This document shows, one piece after another, positions 7,969-47,089 of a DNA stretch of 64,000 bases. Below the pieces are notes generated by a model. That model worked only from the letters and a program-made list of their open reading frames with translations. It made no database searches and was not told where the DNA came from. The stretch lies in assembly GCA_029263395.1 (NCBI GenBank), contig JAJCXO010000229.1, positions 1-64,000 on the forward strand, written 5' to 3'. Source of the stretch: Acidobacteriota bacterium (GTDB taxonomy: Bacteria > Acidobacteriota > Thermoanaerobaculia > Multivoradales > J023). The position numbers were made by a program, and so were the translations under genes. Every line of letters begins with the position of its first letter. Positions within the stretch are counted from its first letter, which is position 1.

Positions 7969-8259
7969 TCAGCCGCCCTCGATGCCAACCAGAATCACCA
8001 GGGCCCAAAAAACCGCCACGGTAATCAAGACGCGGCCTCGCTGCTGCCGATAGGGATCGTCGGTGAGTTCAGCAGGCAGACACCAGTCCAACATCTGAAT
8101 GATTTGTTCCGGGCAACGTACCACTCCAGCCTCAAATATATCCATTGATGGCGCCAGGGCTTCTGTCGAGATCGGTTGGTCAGGAGACTCATGAGGGGAA
8201 CGTTGCGACGATCCCGCATTCTCTAACGACACCGCAGTCAGCGGACGAACCGTCCGCAT
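7969..8259 (-). CDS. Possible small protein with C-terminal membrane anchor
   Basis: A 96-codon frame with an AGGA six bases before its ATG. The N-terminal 75 residues are hydrophilic with two Cys; the C terminus has one helix (VLITVAVFWALVILVGI), which would make it a tail-anchored protein. It starts only 29 bases from the divergently oriented secreted-protein gene at 8289, so promoters would have to lie inside the two genes. The other copy of this module has no counterpart. It may be real or chance; I recognise no family. Confidence 0.35.
   Translation of the reverse strand: MRTVRPLTAVSLENAGSSQRSPHESPDQPISTEALAPSMDIFEAGVVRCPEQIIQMLDWCLPAELTDDPYRQQRGRVLITVAVFWALVILVGIEGG
8241..8257. promoter_or_regulatory. 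Perfect 7-bp inverted repeat upstream of secreted-protein gene A
   Basis: GCGGACG-AAC-CGTCCGC, ending 31 bases before the ATG at 8289. It could be an operator or a 5'-UTR hairpin for that gene. It also overlaps the first codons of the doubtful leftward gene starting at 8259. No matching repeat is seen upstream of the paralogue at 19554. Confidence 0.35.
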
Positions 8260-8288: not shown

Positions 8289-9716
8289 ATGTTTTCCGTT
8301 CTGTTTAGAAACCTTTTCTGCTACCGCCCTTGCGCCAGCCTCTGTCTTGTCCTCATGGTCCTCTCAACCTTGTTCCTACCCACACCGGCTGCTGCCAATT
8401 GCCTACACATCAGACCACCGTACGGAGAGCAGGGTGACGTCGACCCGGGAGACGGCCTCGTACTGCGGATCGCGCCGGACCGCGAAGATCTGTGGGTGAC
8501 CGTCCAGTGGTCACTTGCGGCTCGCCGTCTAGCAACCTTCGTACTGTCGACTCCAACGGGGGAAGAGCTCATGTCGTGGATGGTCCCTAGAACCCCCGGC
8601 GAGGTCTCTGAACATCGGCTATCTAAAGCCCTGAGTCAGATCACCAACTTGGGCTTCCAATACCGGCTCCATCTCGCAAACCCGGACGGCACCACCTCGG
8701 GCGTCAGCTTCAGAGTTGCTGCCGACTGCCCGCCAGACGGACTCTGCACTTATCAGTTGTTACCTGGACTGGAGGGCAGCTTGACCGTCTCCCACGCCTT
8801 GTGGAGTGCTCTCGACGAAGCTAGAGTCGCCGGCTCGACAGATCTCCTCGCAGACGTTCAGGCACAACATCCAGAGCTCGCGCCGGAGGTCCCAGGTTTC
8901 GGTTGGCAGCTTCAGACCGCTGAGCCAGTAGCTAATGCAGACTGCCGCTGTCGGTGGCTGACCGTCGAAGGTTTGGCCCCCAAGAAGCCCCTCGAGATCG
9001 GCAACCTGAACACCACGCCACCCTTGCAGGACTATGGCGAAAACCTCGAGGGCGCCGCTTTTTACGGTTTGCTGCAAGGTACCGCTGGCACGGTCACGAT
9101 GTCCCGCCCGCAGCTTGTCGGTCAGACAACGTTTGGGCTCCAGCTACTGTGCACCCGTGACCTGGGCGAAAGCGCCGCTCGCTTCCCAACCTCCTGGCCT
9201 TCGCTACCTGAGCTCGAGATAGCTCAGCGTCAACTAGAAACCTGCCCCGCTCCCTGTACGCCGATGATCGAGTACACCTCCACGGTGTGGGGCTGCGCTC
9301 AAGCCACCGCTACCAGCCGCAATGGCAACGATGCCGAAGCTGCCGCTGAAATCGACGTCTCTCTGGCCCTGGGCTCTCAGTCTCTAATCGCCTGGGCGGC
9401 CCTGGTCGAAGCTGACGTTGCGAGCGGCCAAACCGTACGCGACCTCGAAAGCCTGTGGAAACAGTCTTCGGCCGAGCTCTACACGGAAGGTGCCGTTGCG
9501 ACAATGGTTGCAGGAGGTGAACAGTCGATCGCGGTCGAGGCTCTCGGTGGCGCCCGCACGAGCTACGCCCTGACCTCGATGTCGACCAAGTACAAGATGA
9601 AATTTGTAGGGTCAGCCAGCTGCGAAGGTATACCGCAGGATGAAGCCTCGGTCGGCAACCTGCATGACGGAACCCATGAAGGTGGCGTTGCCATCGAGCA
9701 ATGGGAGGATCCCTGA
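8289..9716 (+). CDS. Secreted Cys-motif protein A (module A), family unknown
   Basis: A 475-residue exported protein. The ATG at 8289 is chosen because GAGGAG lies six bases upstream and it opens a signal peptide (hydrophobic core about 17-32, cut after PTPAAA). It shares a Cys pattern with the protein at 19554: CPPDGLC about residue 147, CRCRW about 220, LQLLC about 285, CPAPC about 318. Between them are beta-rich segments resembling Ig-like folds (WVTVQWSLAARRLATFVLST). It ends two bases from the convergent kinase stop. No known family recognised. The shared neighbourhood suggests a periplasmic or surface partner of the kinase-sigma pair. Confidence 0.8.
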   Translation: MFSVLFRNLFCYRPCASLCLVLMVLSTLFLPTPAAANCLHIRPPYGEQGDVDPGDGLVLRIAPDREDLWVTVQWSLAARRLATFVLSTPTGEELMSWMVPRTPGEVSEHRLSKALSQITNLGFQYRLHLANPDGTTSGVSFRVAADCPPDGLCTYQLLPGLEGSLTVSHALWSALDEARVAGSTDLLADVQAQHPELAPEVPGFGWQLQTAEPVANADCRCRWLTVEGLAPKKPLEIGNLNTTPPLQDYGENLEGAAFYGLLQGTAGTVTMSRPQLVGQTTFGLQLLCTRDLGESAARFPTSWPSLPELEIAQRQLETCPAPCTPMIEYTSTVWGCAQATATSRNGNDAEAAAEIDVSLALGSQSLIAWAALVEADVASGQTVRDLESLWKQSSAELYTEGAVATMVAGGEQSIAVEALGGARTSYALTSMSTKYKMKFVGSASCEGIPQDEASVGNLHDGTHEGGVAIEQWEDP

Positions 9717-9718
9717 AA

Positions 9719-12340
9719 TCACGGGCAGGCGGCGTTCACGGTCACTTGCCGCGGTGCCAAGGACGGACTCTCAGCCAAACCGGGATAAAGCTCCAACGCT
9801 TCGCCCAAAACACGCCGCGCCGGACCGCAGTCGTTCAGGCGGGCGTGCTGCTCAGCCAGCAGCGTCAATGGGTACGCGAGCCTTTCTGGCGGCATGCCCT
9901 GAATAGTGCGCTGTGATTGGATCTGCTGCTCAAGCACCTCGATCGCTTGCCGGTGACGTTGACGTTTGGCCAAGATCCGAGCGACGGCATAACGGGTCAT
10001 CGCAACCGATGGATTGGACTCACCGAGGGTGCTCAACTCGAGATCCAAGGCTCGCCGAATAAAGGTCTCCGCCTCGCCGAGACGCCCCTGCCCTTCGAGG
10101 TTGTGGCTCAGAGCCCGTAATTCTCGCCCGACCTCGACCGGGTCATCTTGCTGGACTTCCTCCGCCATGCTCAATGCCTGGCGGAAATAGGCTTCAGCCT
10201 CGACTCGGCGACCCTGCTTACCTATCGCAATCGCCACATTGTGAAGTGTCTTCACCAAATCACGATGCGGCCCACGGTAGAGTTTTCGTCGCAGCTCCAA
10301 AACCTCGAGTCCAAGCATCTCCGCCTCAGCGGACCGATCTTGTTTCTGGGTAATTGCCGCTAGATTGTGCAGCGTCTCGGCGACCGCTGGGTGATTGTTG
10401 CCTAGGTTGAGCCGCCGAATGGCCAGGGCCTCGCGAAAGAGAGCCTCGGCGGCCGGATATTGGTCGCGATAGAACAACACCTCCGCTAGATCGTTGGCAC
10501 TTTCCGCGGTGTCGACATGCGATCGTCCGAGCTGCTCGCGACGGACTTCGAGGGCTCGGCGAAACAGGTCTTCCGCCTCCTGCCAGTCTCCACGGGAGAA
10601 ATGCACTTTGGCCAATCCATGGCGAGCTGCTGCGGTCTCGACATGCGGCTCGCCATAAAGATCGCGATTGCGCTCGAGGGTTTGCTGAGCCAGCTCCAGG
10701 GCTTCGTCAAAACGTCGCTCGTCGCGGCGGACACCGGCAAGCTCAAAGAGACCACGGGCAACCTCTGCGCTGTCTGAGCCGAAAGCCTCGCGCCGCAATT
10801 CGAGCGCGTTCTCCAACAACCGGCCAGCCGGCGCATAAAGTCCCAGCGCCTGGTGGACGAGGCCGAGGGTCGAGAGTAGTCGCGCCGCAACCGCTGGTCG
10901 ATTGCCGAGTTCCTTCGGAACCCGGTCCGTGGCGCGGTCGAGGACCTCGCGCACCGTGATGCTGTTGCCGCGAGCTTCCCCTGGATCCGCCAGCTCGAAC
11001 ATGCCGACATTGAAGTTCACCACTTCCTCGAGCTCCTGGAGATGCTGTTCGGCACGACGGCGTTCACCGTCGGCAATCTGCAGCGCCCGGAAGGTGCCTC
11101 CAAAACCGCTGAGCAACGACACCAGGACCAAAGACGCCGCTACTACCGCGATGCGGTTTCGGCGGGCAAACTTCCGCAACCGATACAACGCAGTATCCGG
11201 GCGGGCCATCAGGGGGCGCGACTCGAGATAACGGCGGATGTCATCTTCCAAAGCCTGCGCTGATGGATACCGCCGCTCAGGCTCTTTGTGCATGGCGACA
11301 CGCACGATAGTTCCGAGGTCGCCAGCCAGCCGGTTGCGCAGGCGCGACGGTGACTCACATCGCGCCGCGGCAATCTCCTCGACTGAGGGTTCTCCGACTG
11401 CCGGAATCGACAAACGATCAGCGAGTGTCGGCGGCTCGACTTCACAAACCAGCCGTTCGACTTCACGCTGGCTGCGGGTCTCGAAGCGGAACGCTCGACG
11501 ACCACATAACAACTCATACAGCAGCACACCGAGGGCATACACGTCGGCTGCGGTAGTCAACGGCTCACCGCGCACCTGTTCGGGGCTGGCAAACTCCGGC
11601 GTCATCCAACGCATCCCGGTAACCGTCCGGACTTCGGTCTGATCAACCGGTGTCGGCCCGAGTAACTTGGCGATGCCGAAGTCGAGCAGCTTCGGGTCCC
11701 CTCCCTTGGTTACCAAGATGTTGGAGGGTTTGAGATCACGGTGGATCACCAAACTGCGATGGGCAGCGTGGACGGCAGCACAGACCTTGCGGAACAACTC
11801 CAACCGCTGCCTGAGATCGAGCTGGTGACGATCACAATGGCTGTCGATCGCTTCGCCGTCGATCGCTTCCATGACAACGTAAGGCAGGCCATCGTCAGTT
11901 GAGCCACCATCGATCAGGCGGGCGATGTTCGGATGGTCCAGGCCGGCGAGGATCTGCCGCTCGAGCCGCAGCCGACGCAAAATTTCGGTGGTATCCATGC
12001 CGCGCTTGACGACCTTGATCGCAACCCGCACCCGCACCTGTGACTCGGCGCGCTCTGCCAGATACACCGTGGCCAGCCCGCCGTCGCCGAGGCGCTTCAG
12101 GACACGGTAAGGGCCAATCGCTTGCGGTATCGGCTCGTTGACCGCCAGCTTCAACGCTCCGGTCACCGCACGGTCCAGCTGCTCGTCCGCATCTTCACTG
12201 GCAGCCAACAGAGTGACTACTTCGCGCCGGATTTCAGGGTCGTCGCAAGCGGTTTCGAGAAAGGCCGCATAGTCGACGGGAGGCCGCTCCAACGCGGCAT
12301 GAAACAGCAACTCGACCTGTCGCCAACGCTCCGCGTCCAA
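9719..12340 (-). CDS. Membrane Ser/Thr protein kinase with periplasmic TPR domain (module A)
   Basis: An 873-residue PknB-type kinase. The cytoplasmic catalytic domain (about 75-375) has glycine loop GDGGLATV (85-92), VAIK Lys109, HRDLKPSN (200-207) and DFG (220-222), so it should be active. One transmembrane helix (about 397-415) follows, then a coiled linker and kinesin-light-chain-like TPR repeats of about 42 residues (about 490-850; AEDLFRRALEVRREQLG). The TPR part is predicted to be outside. The N-terminal RWRQVELLF segment is shared with the kinase at 20833. It starts with TTG one base after the sigma-factor stop, so the two are co-transcribed and coupled. Confidence 0.92.
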   Translation of the reverse strand: MDAERWRQVELLFHAALERPPVDYAAFLETACDDPEIRREVVTLLAASEDADEQLDRAVTGALKLAVNEPIPQAIGPYRVLKRLGDGGLATVYLAERAESQVRVRVAIKVVKRGMDTTEILRRLRLERQILAGLDHPNIARLIDGGSTDDGLPYVVMEAIDGEAIDSHCDRHQLDLRQRLELFRKVCAAVHAAHRSLVIHRDLKPSNILVTKGGDPKLLDFGIAKLLGPTPVDQTEVRTVTGMRWMTPEFASPEQVRGEPLTTAADVYALGVLLYELLCGRRAFRFETRSQREVERLVCEVEPPTLADRLSIPAVGEPSVEEIAAARCESPSRLRNRLAGDLGTIVRVAMHKEPERRYPSAQALEDDIRRYLESRPLMARPDTALYRLRKFARRNRIAVVAASLVLVSLLSGFGGTFRALQIADGERRRAEQHLQELEEVVNFNVGMFELADPGEARGNSITVREVLDRATDRVPKELGNRPAVAARLLSTLGLVHQALGLYAPAGRLLENALELRREAFGSDSAEVARGLFELAGVRRDERRFDEALELAQQTLERNRDLYGEPHVETAAARHGLAKVHFSRGDWQEAEDLFRRALEVRREQLGRSHVDTAESANDLAEVLFYRDQYPAAEALFREALAIRRLNLGNNHPAVAETLHNLAAITQKQDRSAEAEMLGLEVLELRRKLYRGPHRDLVKTLHNVAIAIGKQGRRVEAEAYFRQALSMAEEVQQDDPVEVGRELRALSHNLEGQGRLGEAETFIRRALDLELSTLGESNPSVAMTRYAVARILAKRQRHRQAIEVLEQQIQSQRTIQGMPPERLAYPLTLLAEQHARLNDCGPARRVLGEALELYPGLAESPSLAPRQVTVNAACP

Positions 12341-12341
12341 G

Positions 12342-12929
12342 TCAGCTGGCTCCAGCCGACAGACGACGGGCCAGCCAGGCCTTGGCCATCTTCAAGTCGC
12401 GCTCGACGGTAGCGTGCGAAACCTTGAGCACTTCTCCAGCTTCTTGAATCGTCAACCCACCGAACAGTCGCAGCTCCACCACCCGTGCCTTCCTTGGGTC
12501 GAATCCCGCCAGCTCTTCGAGCGCTAGATCCAGCGCAACGATGTCGCCACCCGCAACAAGGTCGCCACCCGCCGCAATCGCTGGCACCAACTCCTCGTCG
12601 AGAGACAACACCACCGCGTCTCCACCCCGCTTGGCAGCGTTGTGCTCCCGGGCCAAGTCGACCAGCACTCGACGCATCAAGCGAGCCGCCATCGCGAAGA
12701 AATGCACACGATCTTGGAAGCCTAATTCCAGCTCGACCATCCGCATGTAGGCTTCGTGCACCAGGGCTGTGGTCTGCAGCAGATGCCCAGCTCGTTCGCC
12801 ACGCATGTGGCGACGGGCCAAACGCCGTAACTCCTGATAGACCATCGGCGTCAAACGTTCGAGGGCAGCAGGATCCCCTTCTCGCCAGGCATGTAGGAGG
12901 CGAGTTACGTCGGAAGCAGGTTCAGCCAT
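12342..12929 (-). CDS. ECF sigma factor, STPK-associated type (module A)
   Basis: A 195-residue ECF-like sigma factor of the type often annotated TIGR02999 and linked to Ser/Thr kinases. Sigma2 covers about 5-95 (YQELRRLARRHM, then HFFAMAARLMRRVLVDLAR) and sigma4 about 135-190 (VVELRLFGGLTIQEAGEVL, SHATVERDLKMAKAWL). The usual acidic stretch before LVQE is replaced by LQTTALVHEAY (Thr53/Thr54). In the related EcfP-PknT system a Thr in this segment is phosphorylated to activate the sigma factor. No anti-sigma gene is adjacent; the downstream kinase is the likely regulator. An 18-bp tandem duplication lies at 12543-12578. Confidence 0.9.
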   Translation of the reverse strand: MAEPASDVTRLLHAWREGDPAALERLTPMVYQELRRLARRHMRGERAGHLLQTTALVHEAYMRMVELELGFQDRVHFFAMAARLMRRVLVDLAREHNAAKRGGDAVVLSLDEELVPAIAAGGDLVAGGDIVALDLALEELAGFDPRKARVVELRLFGGLTIQEAGEVLKVSHATVERDLKMAKAWLARRLSAGAS

Positions 12930-13055
12930 GGTTTGATTTTGTCACAATCACATGTTGGACGCGGGCAATCTTACTCCGAACGATCAAACGTTTAGTCGAC
13001 ACTGGCAAACAGAATACAATCGGACTTCGAGAACCGGCGAGTTTCTGGGAGAGTC

Positions 13056-13454
13056 ATGATGCCACGCATCCTCGTAATCGACGACGACGAGAATGTTCAA
13101 GACATCCTCAGTCGTATGCTGACCAAGAGGGGTTACGAAGTCCTCGTCGCCAACAATGGCAACGAGGGGATTCAGCGTTTTCGCCAAGAGTCCAACCTGG
13201 ACAACCCGGTGGATCTTGTTGTCACCGATCTCTTGATGCCGGAGAAAGAAGGGCTCGAGACGATCTTGGAGCTACGACGAGAATTTGCTGGTATCAAAAT
13301 CATCGTCATGTCCGGCGGCGGAGGCTTCGGAGAGCCTGGCAATATGTTGCACGCCGCCCGCAAGCTCGGTGCCCAATACAGCTTTCAGAAGCCCATTCCC
13401 CGAAGCGATTTTCTGGCTGCGGTCAAGACATTGGTAGGGTCAGGATCTCTGTGA
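13056..13454 (+). CDS. Single-domain response regulator (CheY-like receiver)
   Basis: A 132-residue stand-alone receiver domain. Acidic pocket DDDE at 9-12, phosphoacceptor Asp58 (VVTDLLMP), Ser86 in place of the usual Thr/Ser switch (MSGGG), and Lys112 (FQKPIP) are present. There is no output domain. A GGGAGAG ribosome binding site precedes paired ATG codons (13056 and 13059); either may be used. No partner kinase is adjacent; the upstream sigma-kinase module is divergent. The gene is followed by a permease in the same direction. Confidence 0.9.
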   Translation: MMPRILVIDDDENVQDILSRMLTKRGYEVLVANNGNEGIQRFRQESNLDNPVDLVVTDLLMPEKEGLETILELRREFAGIKIIVMSGGGGFGEPGNMLHAARKLGAQYSFQKPIPRSDFLAAVKTLVGSGSL

Positions 13455-13493
13455 TGAACTCGGATAAGGTTATGATCAATCTTGTGGTCCAGA

Positions 13494-14663
13494 ATGGATC
13501 CCAGAACAGAACAAGATGGCAGTCGAGAAGATGGCAGACGGAAAAATAGCAGTCGAGAGCGCCCCTTGAAGCCCCCAGCACCATCTGGCCCAGTCACGAT
13601 AGCGATTGTGATCTTGGCTATTGTGGCGGTTTTGTTCGCCATGCGGGAAGCTCAGACGATCGTCATTCCGACGCTATTCGCGGTGTTCATCGCAGTCGTT
13701 GCCGATTCGCCGGTGTCCTGGTTGCAGCGTAAGGGTCTTCATCGCATCTTGGCTATCGTGACTGTAATCACGGGCATCGTGCTGATGATGATGGCGTTTG
13801 GCGCTCTTGCTGGCTCCTCGATTCAGGAGCTTTCGGACCGCGCTCCAACCTATCAAGAACGGCTTCGCCAATGGCTGGACCAGACGGTTGGTCTCAACAG
13901 CGGCTCGCCCGTTCGGGTCGACACGTCCAGCTTCCTAGGCGATGTGTCGGCGGATGAGGCATGGGGACTTGCGGCTGGGCTGTTGAACGGGGTCAGCAAC
14001 GTCTTTCGTCGCGCCTTCCTCATTCTGTTCCTGGTGATTTTCATTCTCTTCGAAATCCCTAGTCTGGGCTCCAAGCTCGAGTATCTGGGAGGCTCGACCA
14101 GCGGTACCTGGAAGTCGATTGCAGAGAGTGTTCGCAGATACCTGGCGATCAAATCGATGACCAGTCTGGTCACCGGCTTGTTGGTCGGAACCTTCCTGGT
14201 GCTCATGGAGATCGATTTCGCCGTCCTGTGGGGACTACTGGCGTTCCTGCTCAATTACATCCCGAACATCGGCTCACTGATCGCCTCGGTGCCTGCCGTA
14301 CTGCTGGCGTTGTTGCAGCAAGGGCCGGGGTGGGCGTTGCTGGTTGCCGCGGGTTATCTGGCGATCAACGTTTCGATCGGCAACTTACTCGAGCCTCGCA
14401 TCATGGGCGAAGGCCTCGGGCTGTCGACCTTAGTCGTCTTCCTGTCGTTGATCCTGTGGGGCTGGCTCCTCGGTCCCGTCGGTATGTTGATCTCCGTACC
14501 CTTGACCGCCTCAATGAAGATCGCCCTGCAAGCCTACGAGTCCACCCGACCGATCGCGGTGCTGATGGGGGCTACCAGCAGCTTCGGGCCGTCACTCAAG
14601 ACGGCTCCAGTAGAGTCGACCCGATCGAGCCAGTCCCTGGCTACCGGCGCCGAATCAAGCTAG
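13494..14663 (+). CDS. AI-2E family (PerM/YdiK-type) membrane permease
   Basis: A 389-residue polytopic membrane protein of the AI-2E transporter (UPF0118) family, whose members export small molecules or ions; some act as Na+(Li+)/H+ antiporters. Hydrophobic segments start after a charged 25-residue N-terminal tail. The family signature is seen near the middle: VLWGLLAFLLNYIPNIGSLIASVPAVLLALLQ (shown as adjoining blocks VLWGLLAFLLNYIPNIG and SLIASVPAVLL), then LEPRIMGEGLGLSTLVVFLSL. I prefer the ATG at 13494; a TTG four codons upstream is an alternative. The C-terminal tail is Ser-rich. The stop overlaps the convergent MFS gene by four bases. Confidence 0.85.
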   Translation: MDPRTEQDGSREDGRRKNSSRERPLKPPAPSGPVTIAIVILAIVAVLFAMREAQTIVIPTLFAVFIAVVADSPVSWLQRKGLHRILAIVTVITGIVLMMMAFGALAGSSIQELSDRAPTYQERLRQWLDQTVGLNSGSPVRVDTSSFLGDVSADEAWGLAAGLLNGVSNVFRRAFLILFLVIFILFEIPSLGSKLEYLGGSTSGTWKSIAESVRRYLAIKSMTSLVTGLLVGTFLVLMEIDFAVLWGLLAFLLNYIPNIGSLIASVPAVLLALLQQGPGWALLVAAGYLAINVSIGNLLEPRIMGEGLGLSTLVVFLSLILWGWLLGPVGMLISVPLTASMKIALQAYESTRPIAVLMGATSSFGPSLKTAPVESTRSSQSLATGAESS

Positions 14664-15985
14664 CTATCAGCCTCGATCCCGGACGGGAAAGCCAGGAAGT
14701 CGCGGACGTGTTTCCTGAACCCCAGGATCAGCGTCGCGAGGCCAATCGAGGCACCGCACAGGCCATACAACAAGGGCAGATTCTTGTCGGTGGCATCCCC
14801 TAGGACACCCCCCAAGGCGATCCCCAAGGGGGCAACGGCCATGGCGACTGTCGTCACCACCCCCATGACCCGGCCACGCAACTCTTTTTTGGCACTCATC
14901 TGGAAGGCGGTCACTAGGACGATGTTGAAGAAACCGATGACCAGCCCAATCAAAATTGTCAGTCCCAGGGCGACCCAGGTGCTACTGACCGAGCCCAGGC
15001 TCCCCATCAAAAAACCCATGAGCAGCAGCGCGGTGAGCAAAACATGGCTCTTGGGTTTTGGCGACAGCTTGATGCTGCCGGCCAGTATGTAACCCATCAG
15101 CGCCCCGAAGCCCCAACCAGCGAGCAGAAAACCATACCAATCCGGACCCTTGCCAAGGTTCTTGGAGACGAGAAAGGGCAGCAGAACAAACATCGGCATC
15201 GCAAAAAAATTGACCATCGCAGCCAGGAAAAGAAAGCTGCGCATACCAAGGTTGCCCCAAACGTACCGCAACCCTTCGATCAGATCTTGGCGGTACCCTG
15301 TTCGCTGCGACGGCTGGTCTCCGGCACTCTTTTTCGTCTGCGGAAGACTGATGAAACTTTCGCTCAGCGCGGACAACAAATATGTCACACCGTCGATCAC
15401 GAACAGGACGGGAGCCCCGAGAACTCCATAAAGCACGCCGCTCAAGCTGAAACCCAACAAACCTGAAACCTGGAGCGAGCTCTGGTCCAACGAGTTGGCG
15501 GCGGCCACTTTCTCGCGGGGTACCAGGTCGGGAATTGCTGCCATCGCTGCAGGCTGAAAAAAAGCTTGTAAAACGCCGAGAATAAACGCCATCGCAGCGA
15601 CACAATAGATCAGCACTTGTTGGTCTACGTTCGGCACAAAAAACGGCAGCGCAAGACCCAAAATCGACAACCCACTGAGGGTGTCGCAGGCGACCAATAT
15701 CCACTTACGAGAGACTCGGTCGGCGAGGGTGCCAGCCACCGGGCCCAGCACAATCCCTGGCAGACTACTGGCTAACATCAATCCAGCCATGATGCTGGCC
15801 GAGCCAGTCACCTCCATCGTCCAAGACATCATCGCGACGGCAAAAGCTTGGTTGCCTATTCGGCTGACCATCTGCCCTTGCCACAAGAGCACAAAGTTTC
15901 GATTCAGCAGGCGTCCAACCGGCTTGCGCTCTTCGTGTCCAATAGTCGTCGACTCGGACGATGTTTCGTCATCAACCATGCTCAA
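14660..15985 (-). CDS. MFS exporter (EntS/MFS_3-like)
   Basis: A 441-residue major facilitator with about twelve helices. The N-terminal half carries LLWQGQMVSRIGNQAFAVAM, the loop GTLADRVSRKWIL (MFS motif A between helices 2 and 3), and FFQPAAMAAIPDLVPREKVAAAN, typical of the EntS / macrolide-efflux MFS_3 group. Substrate cannot be told. The N-terminal 28 residues are hydrophilic. It shares the strand of the VOC gene upstream (36-base gap) but no functional link is evident. Confidence 0.88.
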   Translation of the reverse strand: MSMVDDETSSESTTIGHEERKPVGRLLNRNFVLLWQGQMVSRIGNQAFAVAMMSWTMEVTGSASIMAGLMLASSLPGIVLGPVAGTLADRVSRKWILVACDTLSGLSILGLALPFFVPNVDQQVLIYCVAAMAFILGVLQAFFQPAAMAAIPDLVPREKVAAANSLDQSSLQVSGLLGFSLSGVLYGVLGAPVLFVIDGVTYLLSALSESFISLPQTKKSAGDQPSQRTGYRQDLIEGLRYVWGNLGMRSFLFLAAMVNFFAMPMFVLLPFLVSKNLGKGPDWYGFLLAGWGFGALMGYILAGSIKLSPKPKSHVLLTALLLMGFLMGSLGSVSSTWVALGLTILIGLVIGFFNIVLVTAFQMSAKKELRGRVMGVVTTVAMAVAPLGIALGGVLGDATDKNLPLLYGLCGASIGLATLILGFRKHVRDFLAFPSGIEADS

Positions 15986-16021
15986 ACAGCTTCTAGCGGC
16001 TGCAGGTAGCCGCCCGCAACG

Positions 16022-16432
16022 TCATTCCGACAAACCGGTAGAAATCGAAATCTTGAAACCGTCCGGATCAACGACCGCGAAGTCTCGGGCTCCCCACGGT
16101 TGATCTGTTGGCTCTTGGTCCAACTCGCCACCGCGCACCTGAATGCTACGGGCCAACTCGTCGATGTCCTGGGCCGTCGTGCAATAGAGACGGAATCCGA
16201 CACCCTTGGAGCGGTCTCGCCCCTGTTGAAAATCGTCCTGGGCGAGCAAAAAACGCTGCTGACCAGCCTGAATGACAGCTCCGTGGAGGTTGCCTTCTCG
16301 GCGCATCTCCTCGACCACCAAAAAGCCGAGGACGTCGCGGTACCAGGCGAGGCTCTTCGTTAGATCGTTGGCGGTCAGAGCGGGCATCACCGACCGTAGG
16401 CGCAGCGTCTCAGGTTGATTCCTCTGTTCCAT
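16022..16432 (-). CDS. VOC-superfamily (glyoxalase/bleomycin-resistance-like) protein
   Basis: A 136-residue vicinal-oxygen-chelate fold protein. The pattern PALTANDLTKSLAWYRDVLGF at the N terminus and ARDFAVVDPDGFKISIS near the C terminus is characteristic. The start at 16432 is chosen over an upstream in-frame codon because AAGGAG lies eight bases before it and it begins at the domain boundary. Metal-ligand positions typical of glyoxalase I are not all clear, so a specific reaction cannot be assigned. Confidence 0.85.
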   Translation of the reverse strand: MEQRNQPETLRLRSVMPALTANDLTKSLAWYRDVLGFLVVEEMRREGNLHGAVIQAGQQRFLLAQDDFQQGRDRSKGVGFRLYCTTAQDIDELARSIQVRGGELDQEPTDQPWGARDFAVVDPDGFKISISTGLSE

Positions 16433-16582
16433 CACTTGGCTCCTTGCAGGTAAATCGGCTCCTGGGCAAATCGGTTCCTCGCGGGCACGGCGTCTTGAAG
16501 AGATATTGTAATGCCAGCCTAACATGCACTCGACCCGCCACAGGTGATGCCTGCTGGCCGTGCCTGATAGCTGACTACTGAC

Positions 16583-17860
16583 CTACTGTGCCGCCACTTC
16601 GTCGGGCTTTTCCCACAACCTACGAGCTACTGTTTCCCCCAACGCGGCGAAGAAAGGAGTGGCCACTTCTTCGTACTCGTACCGATCATCGTTCAAGATC
16701 TCGTTGTTGTTGGTGTAGATCACAGCAGCGAGGAAAAAAACGCGCCCCGTCTCGGTATCGGTGACATAGGCATTCTCGGTACTGAAACCGTAAGCCTGGC
16801 CGATTTTATTGTAGATCCTCAACCTTTCTTTCGGTATGACTCTCTCCAGTCCAGGCAGCAGGAACTTGACCCAGTCATCGGGATATTGAGCACGGTCATA
16901 AACCGGATTACTGGACTCCCTGGGATATTGCCGCATCGGCGGTAATAGCAGCGAACGCTGCCGATCATCGAGACGAAAACCAGGTCCTCCCGAATCGATA
17001 TCAGGGCGCACAGCTTTAGCTAGGGCGCGCTGCAAGTCCGCCAATGCCATCCGGTTCTTGCGCTGGAAGTCGAAAGGTTTCTCAACCATCTCACCGTGAC
17101 GCAGGAAGCCCCGACCCAGAGTCAACCCACCGACCGTCATCGGTGGTAGATCCAGCACAACGTTGCGAGCTGGAAGCTCGTGCTCAAAATCAGCCCCTTG
17201 GAACACGATGCGCGGCGTCCTCCGGTTCTCCGCCGCGGATCGAGCCTCTGACAAACGATGCACGATACGACTGGAGGCCAGACCGGCACGCAGCATCGAA
17301 CGCTGGATCCCGTCTGGGCCCACCAACTCGTAGAGGCGATTGAAAGCAACGTTATCCGATACCAAAAACAGCTTGCGCAGCTCATGTGCAACCGTGATCT
17401 GCCCAGTCTCGACGTTTGACGGATCGCGAGACTCCACCACCTCGTCGGCGAATAGCGGGTGGTAAACCAGAGGTGTCGTCTCGTCGAGTTTCAAGCCAGC
17501 GCTAGCCGCCAGTTCGGCAAGCCCTTCGAGGGCCGCGATCGCGGCACACAATTTGATACTACTCGCCGGATAAAAGTACTCCGCTTCGAGGCGAAAACCA
17601 TGTTGCACAAGCCGCGGGCGGCCTTCTGACGGCGACTCGATCAACCCGAGCACAACTTGCAACCGGTAACGTTTGGCATCCGCCACAATCGGTGACAACC
17701 GCTCGTCGCTCCGCAGAATGTCCTCGATCGATGGCATCGTCTTCATCAACTCCTCAGCCCAGGATCGCGACGCCGCAACCAGGGCCAACATCAAACCAGC
17801 CAGCACAACGGCTCGGCCAGTCATCGGGCGGCGGTGACGGATCACCGCACAGCCGCTCAC
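16583..17860 (-). CDS. Class A beta-lactamase-like serine hydrolase, exported
   Basis: A 425-residue exported protein with a penicillin-recognising serine hydrolase fold. The N terminus has a hydrophobic signal (about 15-34). Catalytic motifs: SxxK at Ser100-Lys103 (PASSIKL), SDN at 168-170 (LFLVSDNVAFNRLYE), and KIG near 355 in place of KTG. It is longer than true class A beta-lactamases (about 290 residues), with an insert between SDN and KIG. It may be a beta-lactamase-related cell-wall hydrolase. The GTG start overlaps the lysA stop by four bases (GTGA), so it is translated after lysA; an ATG at 17824 is the alternative. Confidence 0.82.
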   Translation of the reverse strand: MSGCAVIRHRRPMTGRAVVLAGLMLALVAASRSWAEELMKTMPSIEDILRSDERLSPIVADAKRYRLQVVLGLIESPSEGRPRLVQHGFRLEAEYFYPASSIKLCAAIAALEGLAELAASAGLKLDETTPLVYHPLFADEVVESRDPSNVETGQITVAHELRKLFLVSDNVAFNRLYELVGPDGIQRSMLRAGLASSRIVHRLSEARSAAENRRTPRIVFQGADFEHELPARNVVLDLPPMTVGGLTLGRGFLRHGEMVEKPFDFQRKNRMALADLQRALAKAVRPDIDSGGPGFRLDDRQRSLLLPPMRQYPRESSNPVYDRAQYPDDWVKFLLPGLERVIPKERLRIYNKIGQAYGFSTENAYVTDTETGRVFFLAAVIYTNNNEILNDDRYEYEEVATPFFAALGETVARRLWEKPDEVAAQ

Positions 17861-19320
17861 TCGTCGCCGGCCTCAGGAGCGCCGACGGTCAACGCACGCG
17901 GTGAACGCTCGGTTTCGAGCAGGTCGGCGAGCAGTTGCCGTTCGGCGATCACCGTCGCGTTGGCGCCATCCACCAATACTTCCGCCGGCCGCCCATGGTC
18001 GTTGTAGTTCGATGCCATCGAGACGCCATAAGCACCGGCCGAGAACACTGCCAACAGGTCCCCCTGCGCCATTTCCGGCAACGGCCGACTGCGGGCCAAA
18101 AAATCACCAGTCTCGCAAATAGGTCCGACCACATCACACTCCACCAGCCCCGGCAAATCCGGGCGTTCGACCCGCGACGGAGCGAGGTGCTGAGCGGGCG
18201 GCCGCACCGGCCAGAGGAAGTGGAAGGCTCGATACAACGCCGGGCGGATCAACGTGTGCATGCCGGCATCACAAATCACGAAGCGCTTCTGACGCCCCTG
18301 TTTGAGGTATTGGACCCGGGTGACCAACACCCCAGCATTGCCGATGATCGAGCGCCCGGGCTCGAGCAGAATCTCGAGCCCACCGGCGGCGCGCTCAGCA
18401 AGCAACGGCACAATTTGTGCAGCGTAATCTTCCGGCGTCGACGACTCGTCCTGACGGTAGTCGACTCCCCAACCGCCCCCGAGATCGAGAACCGACGGTC
18501 GATGTCCACCAGCCTCCAAACGGTCGAGCAGCCCGAGCAAAACCCTCACCGTCTCGACGTAGGGCTGCACCTCGCGCACCGGTGAGCCGATGTGGACTTG
18601 AAGTCCCACCAACTCGACCGCGGGATGGTCGCGGTAGGCGTCGAACAACCCCGGTACTTGATCGGCGTAGACGCCAAACTTGTTCTCTTCGAGGCCTGTG
18701 GTCGTGTACTCATGGGTACGAGCGTCGACGTCTGGGTTGACCCGCAAGCAGGCTCGAGCCGGGACTCCGAGCTGGGCGGCGATAGCTGCGATGCGCTCGA
18801 GCTCGCTGGCAGATTCGACATTGAATAAACCGACCGGGCCACGGGTCAATAGATCATCGCGACCAAACGCCTCCGCTCGACCAGCGAGTGGACTGAAACG
18901 TCCGTCGAGGGCGGCCCGCACCTCGTCCTCGGTCTTGGCGACGCCGGCAAACACGATGTCGGCCATCGGGGTACCTGCCAGCCAGGCACGCTCGAGCTCA
19001 CCGATGGACACCACGTCCATTCGTCCACCGAGCTCACGAATCAAGCGGCAGATATGGAGATTCGGACTCGACTTGACCGCATAATGAAGCCGTGCGTCGA
19101 GCGGTGCAAAAGCCTTGCGCAGGCGTTCGAAGGCCCGGGTTGCCGCCGCTTTCGAGTAGATGTAGACCGGCGTGTCGACCGCATCCGCGATCACCTCGAC
19201 GGGAACATCCTCGGCAAACAATTGGCCCTCGTGGTAGCGAAAGCCGTCGAACCTGAGACCGGACTCGCGGTCGTCGGCTACAGTCCCCTCAGTCGGGGCA
19301 GTCGTCATTTGTACAGGCAT
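17857..19320 (-). CDS. lysA: Diaminopimelate decarboxylase
   Basis: PLP enzyme (fold type III) that decarboxylates meso-diaminopimelate to L-lysine, the last step of the DAP pathway. Seen: PVYIYSKAAATRAF, PLP Lys83 (LHYAVKSSPN), the phosphate loop LDLGGGWGVDY, EPGRSIIGNAG, and substrate residues CDAGMHTLIRPALY and CDVVGPICETGDFLA. Length 487 is somewhat above the usual 420-450; the extra is N-terminal, and the start is uncertain among 19368, 19320 and 19308, none with a good ribosome binding site. Coupled to the downstream serine hydrolase by a four-base overlap. Confidence 0.93.
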   Translation of the reverse strand: MPVQMTTAPTEGTVADDRESGLRFDGFRYHEGQLFAEDVPVEVIADAVDTPVYIYSKAAATRAFERLRKAFAPLDARLHYAVKSSPNLHICRLIRELGGRMDVVSIGELERAWLAGTPMADIVFAGVAKTEDEVRAALDGRFSPLAGRAEAFGRDDLLTRGPVGLFNVESASELERIAAIAAQLGVPARACLRVNPDVDARTHEYTTTGLEENKFGVYADQVPGLFDAYRDHPAVELVGLQVHIGSPVREVQPYVETVRVLLGLLDRLEAGGHRPSVLDLGGGWGVDYRQDESSTPEDYAAQIVPLLAERAAGGLEILLEPGRSIIGNAGVLVTRVQYLKQGRQKRFVICDAGMHTLIRPALYRAFHFLWPVRPPAQHLAPSRVERPDLPGLVECDVVGPICETGDFLARSRPLPEMAQGDLLAVFSAGAYGVSMASNYNDHGRPAEVLVDGANATVIAERQLLADLLETERSPRALTVGAPEAGDE

Positions 19321-19553
19321 GACGGAGGATACAACGCTTTCGACCCACAGCGTCAAGCGTTTCGACACCTACCCTGGCAATCCTTTCGAACTGCAATGTT
19401 TCGACCTGCAGCTCAAGCGTCGGCGAATCCTCTGACCTGTCACAAATCGCTTTGTCATCCTCCCCGATGAGGGAGTCTGGTGATGTTCTGCGCTCTAGTA
19501 TCGAGGGCCCGGTCAACAAAACGATTTTTCACCAATAGTGCGAGGAGCCTCCG

Positions 19554-20789
19554 ATGATTTTCCATTCTGCCCGACTCATCCTGTGTTTATTAGCTCTAGT
19601 GATCCTGTCGCCGACACTTGCCGCCGCCACAACCGTCCAGGTTGTCGGCCTCGAAGCCGCCGACGCTGACTTGCACGTAACCCTGGCTTGGTCCGAGATC
19701 CACGAAGTCACGGCGGCCCGGCTGGCGGTCCGTGATGCCAAGGGTACCGAACTCACCAGCCTGCCGATCGAGGCTCCGCTGGGTGAGACGGTCATGGTCG
19801 AAATACCCGATGTACTGTCGGCGGTGGCGGACGGCAATCTGCAATTCTCCTTGGCAATTCTCACGGATTCAGACAAGCTGGCGGCACCACTACCGTTTCG
19901 TATTCGGTTCGACTGTCCGAAACCGGATCTCTGTCACTTCGAAGTCCAGCCTGGCCTCCGACTGACGGATACCATCGATTTGGCGCCGGAACTCGCCGAA
20001 GCCATCGACGCCAACCCAGACCAGGCCGTCAACCTAATGGCACTCACCAAACAGCGGCCCGAGTTGCGTGGGGAAGCCTACAGTTATGCCTTTGACCTCG
20101 AACACAGCGGCACAACCGAAGCCAGTACTGCTGGCTGCACCTGTGCCTGGACCTCGGTGACCGACAGCTACGAAACCAGTTGTGGCGCCTACGCTACCCT
20201 GGAGGACAACGCTTGGAGTCGCTCGAGCATCGCCGATGCCGATCTCGACCTCAGACTCGAGTTACGCTGCAACCAGATCGAGATCCCGAACCGAATTGCG
20301 GTATCAACGCCTGCCGGTCGCATCGTCATCTCTCCCCCCAGCCTCGTGCCTTGTGCCGCACCTTGTATCGGCACCGTGGCCCATGGGTTGACCGGTGGTG
20401 CGAGGGTGATTGCTGAAGCTGGTTTCAACGCCTTGGCCGAGATCGACTTGACCCTCGATTGGGAGATCGATGGACAACTCACGGCAGCGGAACGGCTGAG
20501 CTTGGCAATCCCCTTGGCGGCCGTCGGCCAAGGCGACAACAGTGTTCAATTTTCTCCGCCGCTTGTTTACCGCCCTGCGCCCTCTAACGCTTCGGCAAAC
20601 ATCCATGCGGATGCCTTCGCCCAACGCCTCAACCTCTACACAAGTGCCATTGCTCTCGGCAGCTTCCATACGGTCGGGCTGGCCGCCTCCGGTTTCGCCG
20701 AATGTGCCCTGCAACAAACGGCTGACGTCCACACTTCCCTGTTCTGCCGAGACAAAGAGATCGGTTTACTGTCAGGTGACCGTCCCTGA
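19554..20789 (+). CDS. Secreted Cys-motif protein B (module B), paralogue of the 8289 gene
   Basis: A 411-residue exported protein. The ATG is preceded by GAGGAG; the signal peptide (about 1-24) ends LAAAT. It shares with the protein at 8289 the Cys motifs CPKPDLC (about 121), CTCAW (about 192), LELRC (about 230) and CAAPC (about 260), and the phrases KQRPELRG versus AQHPELAP, and AEIDLTL versus AEIDVSL. The paralogues are too divergent for recent duplication. It is convergent with a kinase gene 43 bases away, exactly as in module A. Family unknown; likely periplasmic or surface-located. Confidence 0.8.
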   Translation: MIFHSARLILCLLALVILSPTLAAATTVQVVGLEAADADLHVTLAWSEIHEVTAARLAVRDAKGTELTSLPIEAPLGETVMVEIPDVLSAVADGNLQFSLAILTDSDKLAAPLPFRIRFDCPKPDLCHFEVQPGLRLTDTIDLAPELAEAIDANPDQAVNLMALTKQRPELRGEAYSYAFDLEHSGTTEASTAGCTCAWTSVTDSYETSCGAYATLEDNAWSRSSIADADLDLRLELRCNQIEIPNRIAVSTPAGRIVISPPSLVPCAAPCIGTVAHGLTGGARVIAEAGFNALAEIDLTLDWEIDGQLTAAERLSLAIPLAAVGQGDNSVQFSPPLVYRPAPSNASANIHADAFAQRLNLYTSAIALGSFHTVGLAASGFAECALQQTADVHTSLFCRDKEIGLLSGDRP

Positions 20790-20832
20790 CAAATATCGGT
20801 CGGCTGTCCTCACCAAGACTGCAGGATCAATA

Positions 20833-23490
20833 TCAATCGGAGCTCGATGGCTGACGGTCCCAAATCCGGTAAAGCTGGTCCAGCCGGTCTTGCGTCACGG
20901 CTGTGATCTCGGCTGCATCCGGCTCGTTGTCCAAACTGGGAAGACTGTCCAAAGCCCGGAGGCTGTCCAACAAAACAGCCTCCGCTTGCTGGTACAACCC
21001 TAGGATCCCCAGACACTCTCCCAGAGCGCTCTGCGCCTCGGCGATACGCCAGTGCCCGGCAGCGTAACTTCCGCTCCGAATCTCCACTGCGTGCTCGAGG
21101 AATGGCCTCGCACCGGCACAGTCGCCGTTCCCAGCGACCCGTGAGCCGAGCCGCATCAAGGCATGGCCGGTTCGCCAATGTCCGTCGGGATAAGCAGCAC
21201 TGAAAACTGCCAGGGCTTCACGGTAGGTCGACTCGGCCTGCGCCCCGAGATCCGCTTCAACCAAGGTATCCCCGAGGTTCAACAACACAGCTCCCCGCCG
21301 CGGATGCTCAGAACCCAAGGCCTGAGCCAGGAGCGCGGCCGCTTGCTCAAAATCAGCGACCGCGGCCACATAGTCTCCGCGGGCACGAGCGACGTCCGCA
21401 AGGTTGTTGAGACTAAACGCGACGTCAGGATGGTCATCACCCAATAGTCGCTGGCGGGCCACCAACACCTGTCGATGTAGCGTTTCAGCAGCCTGTAAAT
21501 CGCCGCGAGCAAACAATACTGTCGCCAAGTTGGAGAGATTGTAGATCGTATCAGGATGCTCTTCACTCAGAAGTTCGCGACGGATCCCCGCCGCACGACG
21601 GAACAACGTTTCGGCCTCCTCCAGCTTGCCCTCCTGGAAGCGCACTGAAGCGAGGTTGTTGAGCGAACGGGCAGTTGCAACATCGCGGCTCCCAAGCAGT
21701 TCTTCTCGCATCTCGACCGCCTGCTCGAAAAGCGCCCCAGCGGCCTCGAGATCACCACGGCTGAACCTCACGACACCGAGAATATCCAAACTCATCGCAA
21801 CATCAGGATGGCGCTCGCCGAGCTCCCGTCGCTGCACCACCAGCGCTTGTTCGAGTTGTTCCTCGGCATCATCCAAGTCACCGAGCTCAATCAAAACATC
21901 GGCGTGTTCGGCCAGCCCTCGCGCCACTTCGACGTGTTCATCACCCAACGTCTCACGCCGCACTTCAACCGACCGCTCGTAAAGGTCCGCGGAGGGTTGA
22001 TACAGCCCCAAGTTCTTGTAGACCTGCCCCATCGTCGAAAGCAATTGGGACTGTACGGCTTCCTGCCCCGCGAGCTGCTCGATCTTGGTTGCGCCACGAT
22101 CGAGGATCTCGCGAGCTCGTACCTCGTTGCCGCGCGCCTCCCCCGGATCCGCCAAGCGAAACAGCTCGATCAAAAACGAGCTGACGGTCTCCGCCCGTAC
22201 CGTCTGCTCTTCGGCACGCTGGCGATGGCGGTCGGCAACCCGCGCCTGATGGGTGGTCGCGATCAATCCTCCCACCAGAGAAGCGGTCGCCAGGCCTCCC
22301 GCCACCACCACCGCCCGATACCGCCGGACCCATTTACTCATTCGATAGCCGAAGCTCGAAGGACGCGCCCGCACCGGCCGTAGCTCGAGGTGACGCCCAA
22401 GATCATCCGCCAACTGGCCGACCGTCGGATAACGACGCTCGGGCTCCTTGCGCATCGCCATCAACACAATGTTGTCGAGATCCCCTCGCAGCCGTCGGTG
22501 CAGAGACGATGGCCGGATGCCACGCTGAGCCGCGAGGTCGGCGGCGGACAGCAAGTCGGGACTTGCAACCACAGCGCTCGGACGGGTCGCTTCAGCGGTA
22601 CACACCAGCTGCTCCATCTCGCTGTAAGCCTTGTCGTCTAGACGATAGGGCGGTCTGCCCGTCAGCAGGCGATAGAGGATGACTCCCAGCGAGTAGACGT
22701 CCGTTGCGGTGGTCAACACTTGGCCACGGAGTTGCTCTGGGCTGGCGTATTCAGGGGTCAGCATCTGAACGCCGGTCATCGTTCGAGGGTGTTCACTCGG
22801 CGCCAGTAGCTTGGCGATACCGAAGTCCAAAAGTTTGGGCAGTCCATCCGCCGTGACCAGAATGTTCGACGGTTTGAGATCCCGATGGATGATCAGCTTT
22901 TGATGGGCGTATTGGACCGCGCCACAAACGCTCATGAAAAGCCGCAGGCGATCCTCGATCGAGAGCTGCCTGCGGTCGCAGTAGGCTTCGAGGGTTTCTC
23001 CCTCGACCAGCTCCATCGCAAAATAGGGACGTCCATCCTGGGTCGAGCCACCGTCGATCAAGCGAGCGATGTTGGGATGTTCGAGATCCGCCAAGATCTG
23101 GCGCTCACGTCGCAAGCGGTCGAGGATCTCATCCGTATCCATGCCGCGTTTGATGACCTTGACCGCAACTCTCTGGCGAACCTCCCCTTCTCGCTCCGCC
23201 AGATACACAACTCCAGTGCCACCGCGTCCAACCTCGCGCACGACTCGATACGGGCCGATATTCACCACCGCCTCTTCCCGCGGTGCCGAAGCCGCAAGCT
23301 CGAATCCACCGCGGACCACACGCTCTACCCGGTGACTGCGTTCTCCCGCGGACAACAACGATTCAACTTCCAGCTGCAGCTCAGCATCGCCTTCACAGGC
23401 GGTCGTGAGCCACTCATCTCGGGTGGCCAGGGACTGTTCGAGGGCATCGTGAAACAGCTCCTCGACCTGTCGCCAGCGCGCTGAATCCAT
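20833..23490 (-). CDS. Membrane Ser/Thr protein kinase with periplasmic TPR domain (module B)
   Basis: An 885-residue PknB-type kinase. The ATG at 23490 is chosen because it overlaps the sigma-factor stop (TGATG) and starts the conserved RWRQVEELF segment. Catalytic features: GRGGTGVV loop (88-95), VAVK Lys111, HRDLKPSN (202-209), DFG (222-224). A transmembrane helix (about 393-412) is followed by a coiled linker and at least seven TPR units of about 42 residues (about 470-860). The C-terminal domain is predicted to be outside. It matches the kinase at 9719 in domain order throughout, with the highest similarity in the kinase domain. Confidence 0.92.
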   Translation of the reverse strand: MDSARWRQVEELFHDALEQSLATRDEWLTTACEGDAELQLEVESLLSAGERSHRVERVVRGGFELAASAPREEAVVNIGPYRVVREVGRGGTGVVYLAEREGEVRQRVAVKVIKRGMDTDEILDRLRRERQILADLEHPNIARLIDGGSTQDGRPYFAMELVEGETLEAYCDRRQLSIEDRLRLFMSVCGAVQYAHQKLIIHRDLKPSNILVTADGLPKLLDFGIAKLLAPSEHPRTMTGVQMLTPEYASPEQLRGQVLTTATDVYSLGVILYRLLTGRPPYRLDDKAYSEMEQLVCTAEATRPSAVVASPDLLSAADLAAQRGIRPSSLHRRLRGDLDNIVLMAMRKEPERRYPTVGQLADDLGRHLELRPVRARPSSFGYRMSKWVRRYRAVVVAGGLATASLVGGLIATTHQARVADRHRQRAEEQTVRAETVSSFLIELFRLADPGEARGNEVRAREILDRGATKIEQLAGQEAVQSQLLSTMGQVYKNLGLYQPSADLYERSVEVRRETLGDEHVEVARGLAEHADVLIELGDLDDAEEQLEQALVVQRRELGERHPDVAMSLDILGVVRFSRGDLEAAGALFEQAVEMREELLGSRDVATARSLNNLASVRFQEGKLEEAETLFRRAAGIRRELLSEEHPDTIYNLSNLATVLFARGDLQAAETLHRQVLVARQRLLGDDHPDVAFSLNNLADVARARGDYVAAVADFEQAAALLAQALGSEHPRRGAVLLNLGDTLVEADLGAQAESTYREALAVFSAAYPDGHWRTGHALMRLGSRVAGNGDCAGARPFLEHAVEIRSGSYAAGHWRIAEAQSALGECLGILGLYQQAEAVLLDSLRALDSLPSLDNEPDAAEITAVTQDRLDQLYRIWDRQPSSSD

Positions 23491-24071
23491 CAGTCGTCCA
23501 TCTCCCGAGCCAGCCAAGCTTTGGCCAGCTTGAGATCGCGCTCGACGGTAGCATGGGACAACGTCAACACCTCGGCCGTTTCGTCGATGGTCAAACCCGC
23601 AAAAAACCGCAGCTCCACCACTCTCGCCTTGCGTTCATCCATTGCTGCCAACCGCTTCAGGGCATCGTCCAGCGCCAGCAGATCGGTGGCCTGCTCGATG
23701 GCGATCTCCAAACCGTCCAACGCGATCGGACGCTCCGGACCACCACGCTTGGCGGCCGCCTGCTGACGAGCAAAATCGATCAAGATCCGGCGCATCAAAC
23801 GCGCTGCCACGGCAAAAAAGTGCTGCCGACCATGCCATCGCACATCGAGGCCGACAAGCCGTAGATAGGCCTCGTGCACCAGCGCCGTCGGTTGCAGTAC
23901 ATGGTCCGGGCCTTCCCGGCTCATGTAGCTATGGGCCAGCCGCCGCAGCTCACTGTAAACCATCGGCGTCAACTGATCGAGAGCCTCCGGATTGCCGGAT
24001 TGCCATGAGATCAGCAAACGTGTCACCGGAGATTCCGGCGGGGCGTCGGGGCCAGGAAGCGATTCGTTCAT
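23490..24071 (-). CDS. ECF sigma factor, STPK-associated type (module B)
   Basis: A 193-residue ECF-like sigma factor paralogous to the one at 12342. Sigma2 (about 15-105) has LDQLTPMVYSELRRLAHSYM and HFFAVAARLMRRILIDFAR; sigma4 (about 130-188) has VVELRFFAGLTIDETAEVL and SHATVERDLKLAKAWLA. The segment VLQPTALVHEAYLRLV places Thr62 where other ECF factors carry acidic residues. The stop overlaps the kinase start by one base. The N-terminal tail is Pro-rich. No anti-sigma factor nearby; the kinase is the expected regulator. Confidence 0.9.
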   Translation of the reverse strand: MNESLPGPDAPPESPVTRLLISWQSGNPEALDQLTPMVYSELRRLAHSYMSREGPDHVLQPTALVHEAYLRLVGLDVRWHGRQHFFAVAARLMRRILIDFARQQAAAKRGGPERPIALDGLEIAIEQATDLLALDDALKRLAAMDERKARVVELRFFAGLTIDETAEVLTLSHATVERDLKLAKAWLAREMDD

Positions 24072-25230: not shown

Positions 25231-25283
25231 ACAGGACCGGCTAAGGCAGGACCGGCTAAGACAGGGCCGGCTAAGACAGGACC
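25224..25283. repeat. 15-bp tandem repeat (four units) covering the stop codon of the receiver-LpxC gene
   Basis: Units GGCTAAGACAGGACC, with one or two substitutions, at 25224, 25239, 25254 and 25269. Read on the gene's strand they give (E)PVLS-stop, P-A-L-S-stop, P-V-L-P-stop, P-V-L-S-stop: the stop codon is repeated four times in frame. Most likely replication slippage. Confidence 0.9.
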
Positions 25284-26587: not shown

Positions 26588-26850
26588 GCTTTGCGGCCTC
26601 GCCAATTTGTTATCTCAGGCTGTCACCTTGCACGGACGAACCTTGCGTGCCCTCGAAGGGTCTCTCAGGTGATCAAACTTTCCGATGTAGCGATGATACC
26701 GCACTGGCAAGGTCACGAGATGCCCTACAGCACACGGTCCCAGCGCTGGAGCGTCATCGCGGCACCTGAGGAGCATTGCGACCCCTCGACCAAACAGTTA
26801 TGCTGAGCCCACACAACGAGAGCCTAGCTGCTGACGATTGAGAGCCCAAG

Positions 26851-46875: not shown

Positions 46876-47089
46876 AAAAGCCTCCAAGGTTGGATGTCGA
46901 ACGAAGGGCAGGATCCGTTCCAAGGGCTAGATAGCGTGTGTCACTCAAAACTCAGCGCCCAAGTCACCCTGAAATCGCGATCACCCTGATTGGCGGCAAG
47001 TGACGCTCGACTCCCTCAAAGGAATCGCAACAATGTCGCGAGATCCGACGCTGCCAGACGTCAGGACCGAACAAGAGCCCAGAAAATCC

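Follow-up and report, generated by a model that had tools for sequence, protein, structure and literature searches.

Predicted Exported Cysteine-Rich Proteins Linked to ECF43 Sigma Factor and TPR Kinase Genes in One Order of Acidobacteriota, and Their Putative Role as Module-Specific Outputs

Organization of the two loci

The window, that is, the whole stretch of 64,000 nucleotides that was analysed, contains two loci, A and B, with the same three-gene architecture. In locus A, the gene for SecA, a predicted exported protein of 475 aa with eight conserved cysteines and no match in Pfam or NCBIfam (8289..9716, plus strand), runs tail-to-tail into the gene for KinA, a Hanks-type Ser/Thr kinase of 873 aa with a transmembrane (TM) helix and a C-terminal TPR domain (9719..12340, minus strand). 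The latter is preceded by the gene for EcfA, an ECF sigma factor (PF07638) with a QTTA motif of the ECF43 type (12342..12929, minus strand). Locus B consists of the genes for SecB, a predicted exported protein of 411 aa from the SecA family (19554..20789, plus strand), KinB, again a Hanks-type Ser/Thr kinase with a TM helix and a TPR domain (20833..23490, minus strand), and EcfB, an ECF sigma factor (PF07638) with the ECF43-type motif QPTA (23490..24071, minus strand). The convergent genes are separated by 2 bases in locus A and by 43 bases in locus B. An earlier note on this DNA had claimed the same architecture for both loci, and its coordinates, strands, and gaps all proved correct; the cysteine pattern that it had described (C-x5-C, C-x-C-x-W, L-x-L-x-C, C-x-x-P-C) was likewise found in both SecA and SecB.

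Pfam searches identified Pkinase and TPR_12/TPR_10 domains in KinA and KinB, separated by a single TM helix predicted from the sequence, which is the PknS-type receptor layout (kinase domain, one TM helix, TPR). Both kinases contain the HRDLKPSN and DFG motifs, and they share 43% identity over their full length. The two sigma factors matched PF07638 with scores of 186 and 191 bits, against a cut-off of 21.1. The likely start of KinB is the ATG at 23490 (the longest frame begins with TTG at 23517), which overlaps the stop codon of EcfB (TGATG), while KinA starts one base past EcfA. Since the kinase starts abut or overlap the ECF ends, the sigma factor and the kinase of each locus are probably translated together. 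Judged by their sequences, loci A and B are paralogous modules.

The genome to which the window belongs (G000; 10.7 Mb, 291 contigs) encodes about 57 strong PF07638 genes, and most of those checked adjoin a TPR kinase. Given this number and the paralogy of the modules, the kinase–ECF pair by itself is unremarkable, and the Sec gene is the distinctive part. A third Sec copy was detected in the same genome outside the window, on contig C90 (locus L060). The set of ECF/TPR-kinase circuits in this genome is unusually large. Another observation in the window concerns a 444-aa ORF (25271-26605, minus strand), in which a response-regulator receiver domain (residues 11-120) is fused to LpxC (167-432). 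The fusion suggests that lipid A synthesis is under signal control, and a partial copy is present at the same place in the relative G001 (L021).

The Sec family and its linkage to kinase–sigma factor loci

The profile-similarity check between the two secreted proteins detected similarity, and SecA and SecB are homologous (30% identity over 169 aa; E 3e-13 in the pairwise comparison and E 4e-10 in the whole-genome search). Searches with SecB and with a 16-row profile, made without any use of the kinase, revealed at least 22 Sec loci in at least 11 of 149 genomes of the class, all from one order; these are loci among the candidates scored per genome, and very divergent members may escape such a search. 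No credible Sec homologue was found outside the order in a phylum sample of 396 genomes. Two candidates were rejected: a match in G220 from the phylum-wide search (E 9e-4), with the kinase absent nearby, and a weak match in the own genome (C185, E 0.54), where a convergent Sec gene was absent. The 16-row alignment itself contains no conserved run of 7-10 columns, and a scan with the SecB pair matched only a MAG of the same genus. G001, a relative from this genus, could be equated with contig JAJCXQ010000052.1 in the Acidobacteriota MAG OFTM268.

Eight cysteine columns were recognized in Sec, each of them kept in at least 17 of 20 family members, and an N-terminal hydrophobic export signal was present in the members whose starts were examined. 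From this, we infer that Sec is an exported, disulfide-rich protein working outside the cytoplasm. No significant match to Sec was obtained in Pfam, NCBIfam, or the PDB sequences. Sec thus appears to be a family without a name, known so far only in this Acidobacteriota order. The N-terminal domain of SecB (residues 26-136) was modeled as an eight-stranded, possibly Ig-like beta sandwich (pLDDT 79, pTM 0.71). The model resembles Ig-like, SKICH, and GH2 sandwich domains, with many of them at Z 8-9.6, and the best Foldseek E value was only 3e-3. The full-length AlphaFold2 model of Sec, built from a three-sequence input, had a pLDDT of 42; therefore, only the N-terminal domain was interpreted.

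All 20 Sec loci with readable flanks (among the at least 22 found), which share a common ancestry and are not 20 independent events, are located in an ECF/TPR-kinase locus. Sec is tail-to-tail with the kinase in 18 of the 20, with gaps from -21 to 180 bases. In the two exceptions, Sec is placed between the ECF gene and the kinase gene (L025) or about 3 kb downstream (L060), and both keep the Sec–kinase–ECF partnership. The wider flanks of the modules differ outside the genus. The proposal of the earlier note that the conserved order implies a functional link is strongly supported by this linkage, and the check for Sec homologues occurring mostly without the kinase–sigma pair revealed the opposite.

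The phylogenetic trees of Sec, the kinase, and the ECF sigma factor agree, with the groups A/L020, B/L021, L109/L110, L025/L026, L031/L060/L108, L024/L027, and L029/L033 common to all three. When 35 other kinases from the own genome were included in a tree, those linked to Sec clustered strongly (5 changes vs 16.4 in shuffles): 15 of the 20 formed one supported group, and five were located elsewhere on weakly supported branches. In genome G012, a sister of a Sec-linked kinase–ECF pair is without Sec (L200); thus, Sec has been dispensable at least once. The place of Sec at L200 (8286-9793, G012:C1) is taken by overlapping genes for a small unannotated protein and an unrelated ordinary ECF sigma factor. 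At another locus (L112, 8820-11342, G027:C95), the Sec-adjacent kinase is split into two frames, one for the kinase and one for the TPR domain, which reflects either a frameshift or an assembly error.

Putative promoters of Sec and of a second secreted family

A bipartite element, TGA[GT]GG[GA]-N16-CGC, was found within 260 nt upstream of 10 of the 16 non-redundant Sec genes. Its spacing is fixed: within 200 nt, 9 of 16 genes have the two parts at 16 nt, and none at 10-15 or 17-22. When upstream regions were drawn at random in sets of 16, the best comparable motif occurred in 3-4 sequences, vs 9 for the Sec set, and the true background of the element was 1 in 277 upstream regions; as the motif was derived from the same loci in which it was counted, these controls lessen the resulting bias and do not abolish it. 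At three further loci (L023, L025, and L110), the element heads an apparent operon ending in Sec, and it is absent upstream of Sec at L026, L030, and L112. A -35 and a -10 element separated by 16 nt represent the geometry of ECF promoters. Sigma-70-like sites in the region occurred only at chance level.

In the window, the predicted ECF-type promoter of SecA (8192..8220, plus strand) consists of -35 TGAGGGG, N16, and -10 CGCATT and is kept in the same-genus orthologue L020. That of SecB (19468..19496, plus strand), with -35 TGAGGGA, N16, and -10 CGCTCT, is kept in the orthologue L021. The motif was not found upstream of EcfA and EcfB, and most ECF genes of the modules are likewise without it; autoregulation is therefore not general. 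At L109, the element precedes the ECF gene itself, and CGCCTAC is present at both the Sec and the ECF promoters. The only other match to the pattern in the window (46991-47018, minus strand) lies 67 nt before a 1648-aa ORF and is probably due to chance. Divergent from SecA is the gene for a DUF5916 protein with a CBM9-like N-terminal domain (5142-7835, minus strand), and the SecA-type promoter element is absent before it.

The element also precedes genes for beta-helix proteins (L024, L027), a trypsin-like protein (L031), and an SBBP protein (L108). Where it occurs more than once at a locus, the bases flanking CGC are specific to that locus: agreement was 4.7 of 5 positions within a locus vs 2.28 between loci (permutation p 5e-5), and the promoter spacers differ where the -10 flanks agree. 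Thus, CGCATAAG is present twice at L022, and CGCCCTGT twice at L028. The -10 elements of the window are CGCATTCT in locus A and CGCTCTAG in locus B. Because the -10 flanks of paralogous modules differ, little cross-talk is to be expected between copies A and B, which should be mutually insulated. An exact-match search of the own genome with either -10 element revealed no other intergenic match before a gene, the remaining matches being intragenic or having no gene within reach. Within the sensitivity of exact matching, Sec is therefore the only target found for each module. Four further intergenic TGAGGGA-N16-CGCCT sites were detected in the own genome (L126, L130, L135, and L143), of which at least three precede secreted genes. 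Located far from the window, before genes of large secreted or repeat proteins, they possibly belong to a regulon under a different ECF43-type factor.

The Sec profile did not recover a second family of secreted proteins, the L083/L036 type. Its genes are tail-to-tail with a TPR kinase at each of the six loci initially identified and at a seventh in G003 (L201). A different promoter, TGA[TG]CC-N18-ACG, is present at 6/6 loci of this family (4/4 non-redundant), vs at most 3 in random sets. Its stricter form with ACGTT was also found before the ECF gene at L083, before divergent genes beside the ECF gene at L036 and L156, and before two remote secreted genes. In other genomes, different secreted proteins are encoded at this position (L203, L207, and L210), and other convergent secreted genes are present in the own genome (L063, L064, L071, and L077). 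Signal-peptide genes are enriched tail-to-tail with kinases, at 7/11 by script and 8/11 once the SecA start was corrected, vs 9/42 (Fisher p values of 0.011 and 0.0025, respectively); this enrichment is suggestive only.

Proposed model and comparison with known systems

An uncharged ECF43-type motif with a putative phospho-acceptor Thr, replacing the DAED motif, is present in all 20 sigma factors of the modules. Together with the PF07638 profile and the adjacent Hanks-type kinase, this motif marks the module factors as probable members of ECF43. In EcfP and EcfK, the neighbouring kinase phosphorylates the Thr of the motif, and it was proposed that the negative charge gained in this way permits binding to core RNA polymerase (PMC8999054, PMC13147305). 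By analogy with EcfK/PknS and EcfP/PknT, and given the QTTA-type motif, the ECFs of the modules are presumably phosphorylated by the module kinases. In PknS, the kinase domain is inside and the TPRs are in the periplasm (PMC13147305). The single TM helix of KinA and KinB and their PknS-like layout are compatible with a periplasmic TPR domain.

We consider it likely that each locus is a self-contained module, with Sec as the dedicated output of its own kinase–ECF43 pair. The TPR domain of the receptor kinase would lie outside the membrane, with the kinase domain on the inner side. When stimulated, the receptor would phosphorylate its co-transcribed ECF43 at the Thr conserved in the QTTA-type motif, and the phosphorylated ECF43 would join RNA polymerase. 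This holoenzyme would then transcribe the tail-to-tail Sec gene from the TGA[GT]GG[GA]-N16-CGC promoter with its module-specific -10 flank and, at some loci, other secreted genes as well. The exported, disulfide-rich Sec would act as the output outside the cytoplasm, and it may in addition signal back to the TPR domain. The linkage at 20/20 loci, the congruent trees, the nearly optimal pairing of Sec and kinase among paralogues within a genome, and the locus-specific promoter suggest that the phospho-activated ECF43 of each module most likely has Sec as its dedicated target. The motif is presumably recognized directly by the cognate ECF; in principle, it could belong to another sigma factor. 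We also infer the role of Sec as an output. The earlier note had listed the secreted protein as a ligand, brake, or regulated target; the locus-specific ECF-type promoter sequence supports the last of these, and the putative role as a ligand or brake of the TPR domain is based on co-evolution and the knowledge of other systems.

A tentative reading, compatible with the target model and additional to it, is that Sec is mainly a periplasmic regulator, which binds the TPR domain as a brake or co-sensor in a CpxP-like manner, so that a feedback loop is closed when the ECF induces Sec. It is favoured by the co-variation of Sec, which is best with the TPR domain: the partial rank correlation was 0.33, vs 0.19 for the ECF and 0.13 for the kinase domain, and the true Sec-TPR pairing was matched or beaten by 2 of 1728 within-genome re-pairings of paralogues in rank correlation (9/1728 for the kinase domain and 12/1728 for the ECF). 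Such co-variation is compatible with contact and does not prove it, because Sec and the TPR domain also evolve faster than the rest. In addition, Sec is the only candidate target retained at essentially all loci, and precedents exist in the action of CpxP on CpxA (PMC4160245) and in the periplasmic domain of PknS, which seems to restrain auto-activation (PMC13147305). However, the quality of the full-length model of Sec does not suffice for docking, one sister kinase (L200) is without Sec, and the fast evolution of Sec, with 27-31% identity where the TPR domain keeps 48-57%, would equally suit an outward-facing effector.

It is improbable that the tail-to-tail order is itself functional, with Sec transcription proceeding into the 3' end of the kinase gene and exerting negative feedback on the kinase–ECF operon by antisense or collision. 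The gaps are indeed short or overlapping at most loci, no terminator-like site was found between the convergent genes of the window, and the orientation is kept in 18/20 loci and in the second family; nevertheless, the orientation may simply be inherited, the genes stay together at L025 and L060 although they do not converge tightly there, and the second family has a gap of 212 nt at L155. Ordinary proximity, in which a rapidly evolving secreted gene with no functional relation to an often-duplicated signalling operon hitch-hikes with it, is highly implausible: the modules are paralogous by common ancestry and the genome is rich in kinase–ECF pairs and secreted genes (83/373 genes SP-like), but the linkage persists at all readable loci though the flanks beyond the module differ outside the genus, a promoter with a locus-specific -10 is not expected, and the arrangement recurs with another secreted family that is unrelated to Sec.

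A more general design, still doubtful, would be that each ECF43-linked receptor kinase in this order is paired tail-to-tail with a module-specific secreted protein, which is both its main transcriptional target and the extracytoplasmic partner of its TPR domain. If true, insulated sigma circuits with one output each would form a family represented by many copies within one genome. In the ECF43 field, little is known about the signals of the periplasmic domains and the promoters read by the sigma factors, and the outputs named in the literature, as far as it is accessible, are type VI secretion and polymyxin resistance only. For a single lineage, there are now a conserved family of candidate targets, explicit putative promoters with a module-specific -10, and paralogous module pairs in one genome. 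Thus, cognate recognition, insulation, and a possible TPR ligand can be addressed directly with a small number of reporters.

CpxP is induced by its own Cpx system. As a periplasmic accessory protein that binds the receptor kinase CpxA and shuts it off (PMC4160245), it parallels the putative role of Sec at its receptor kinase, whereas CpxA belongs to a histidine-kinase two-component system and feedback by Sec is hypothetical. EcfP-PknT of Vibrio parahaemolyticus is also an ECF43 system; the sigma factor is inactive until the Thr replacing the DAED acidic motif is phosphorylated (PMC8999054), but the regulon confers polymyxin resistance, and its targets differ from those of the Sec modules. In EcfK-PknS from Xanthomonas citri, an ECF43 adjoins a Hanks-type kinase whose kinase domain is cytoplasmic and whose TPRs are periplasmic, with a single TM helix, and direct phosphorylation was shown, including that of T51 in the QATE/QTTA-type motif (PMC13147305); however, the known target is a type VI secretion system, and a tail-to-tail Sec-like partner is unmentioned in the available text. 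Likewise, no Sec-like secreted partner is described in the openly accessible reviews and papers on ECF43. The kinase–sigma core is already known, whereas the family of Sec proteins, the code in their promoters, and the tail-to-tail arrangement are new as far as the accessible sources allowed checking.
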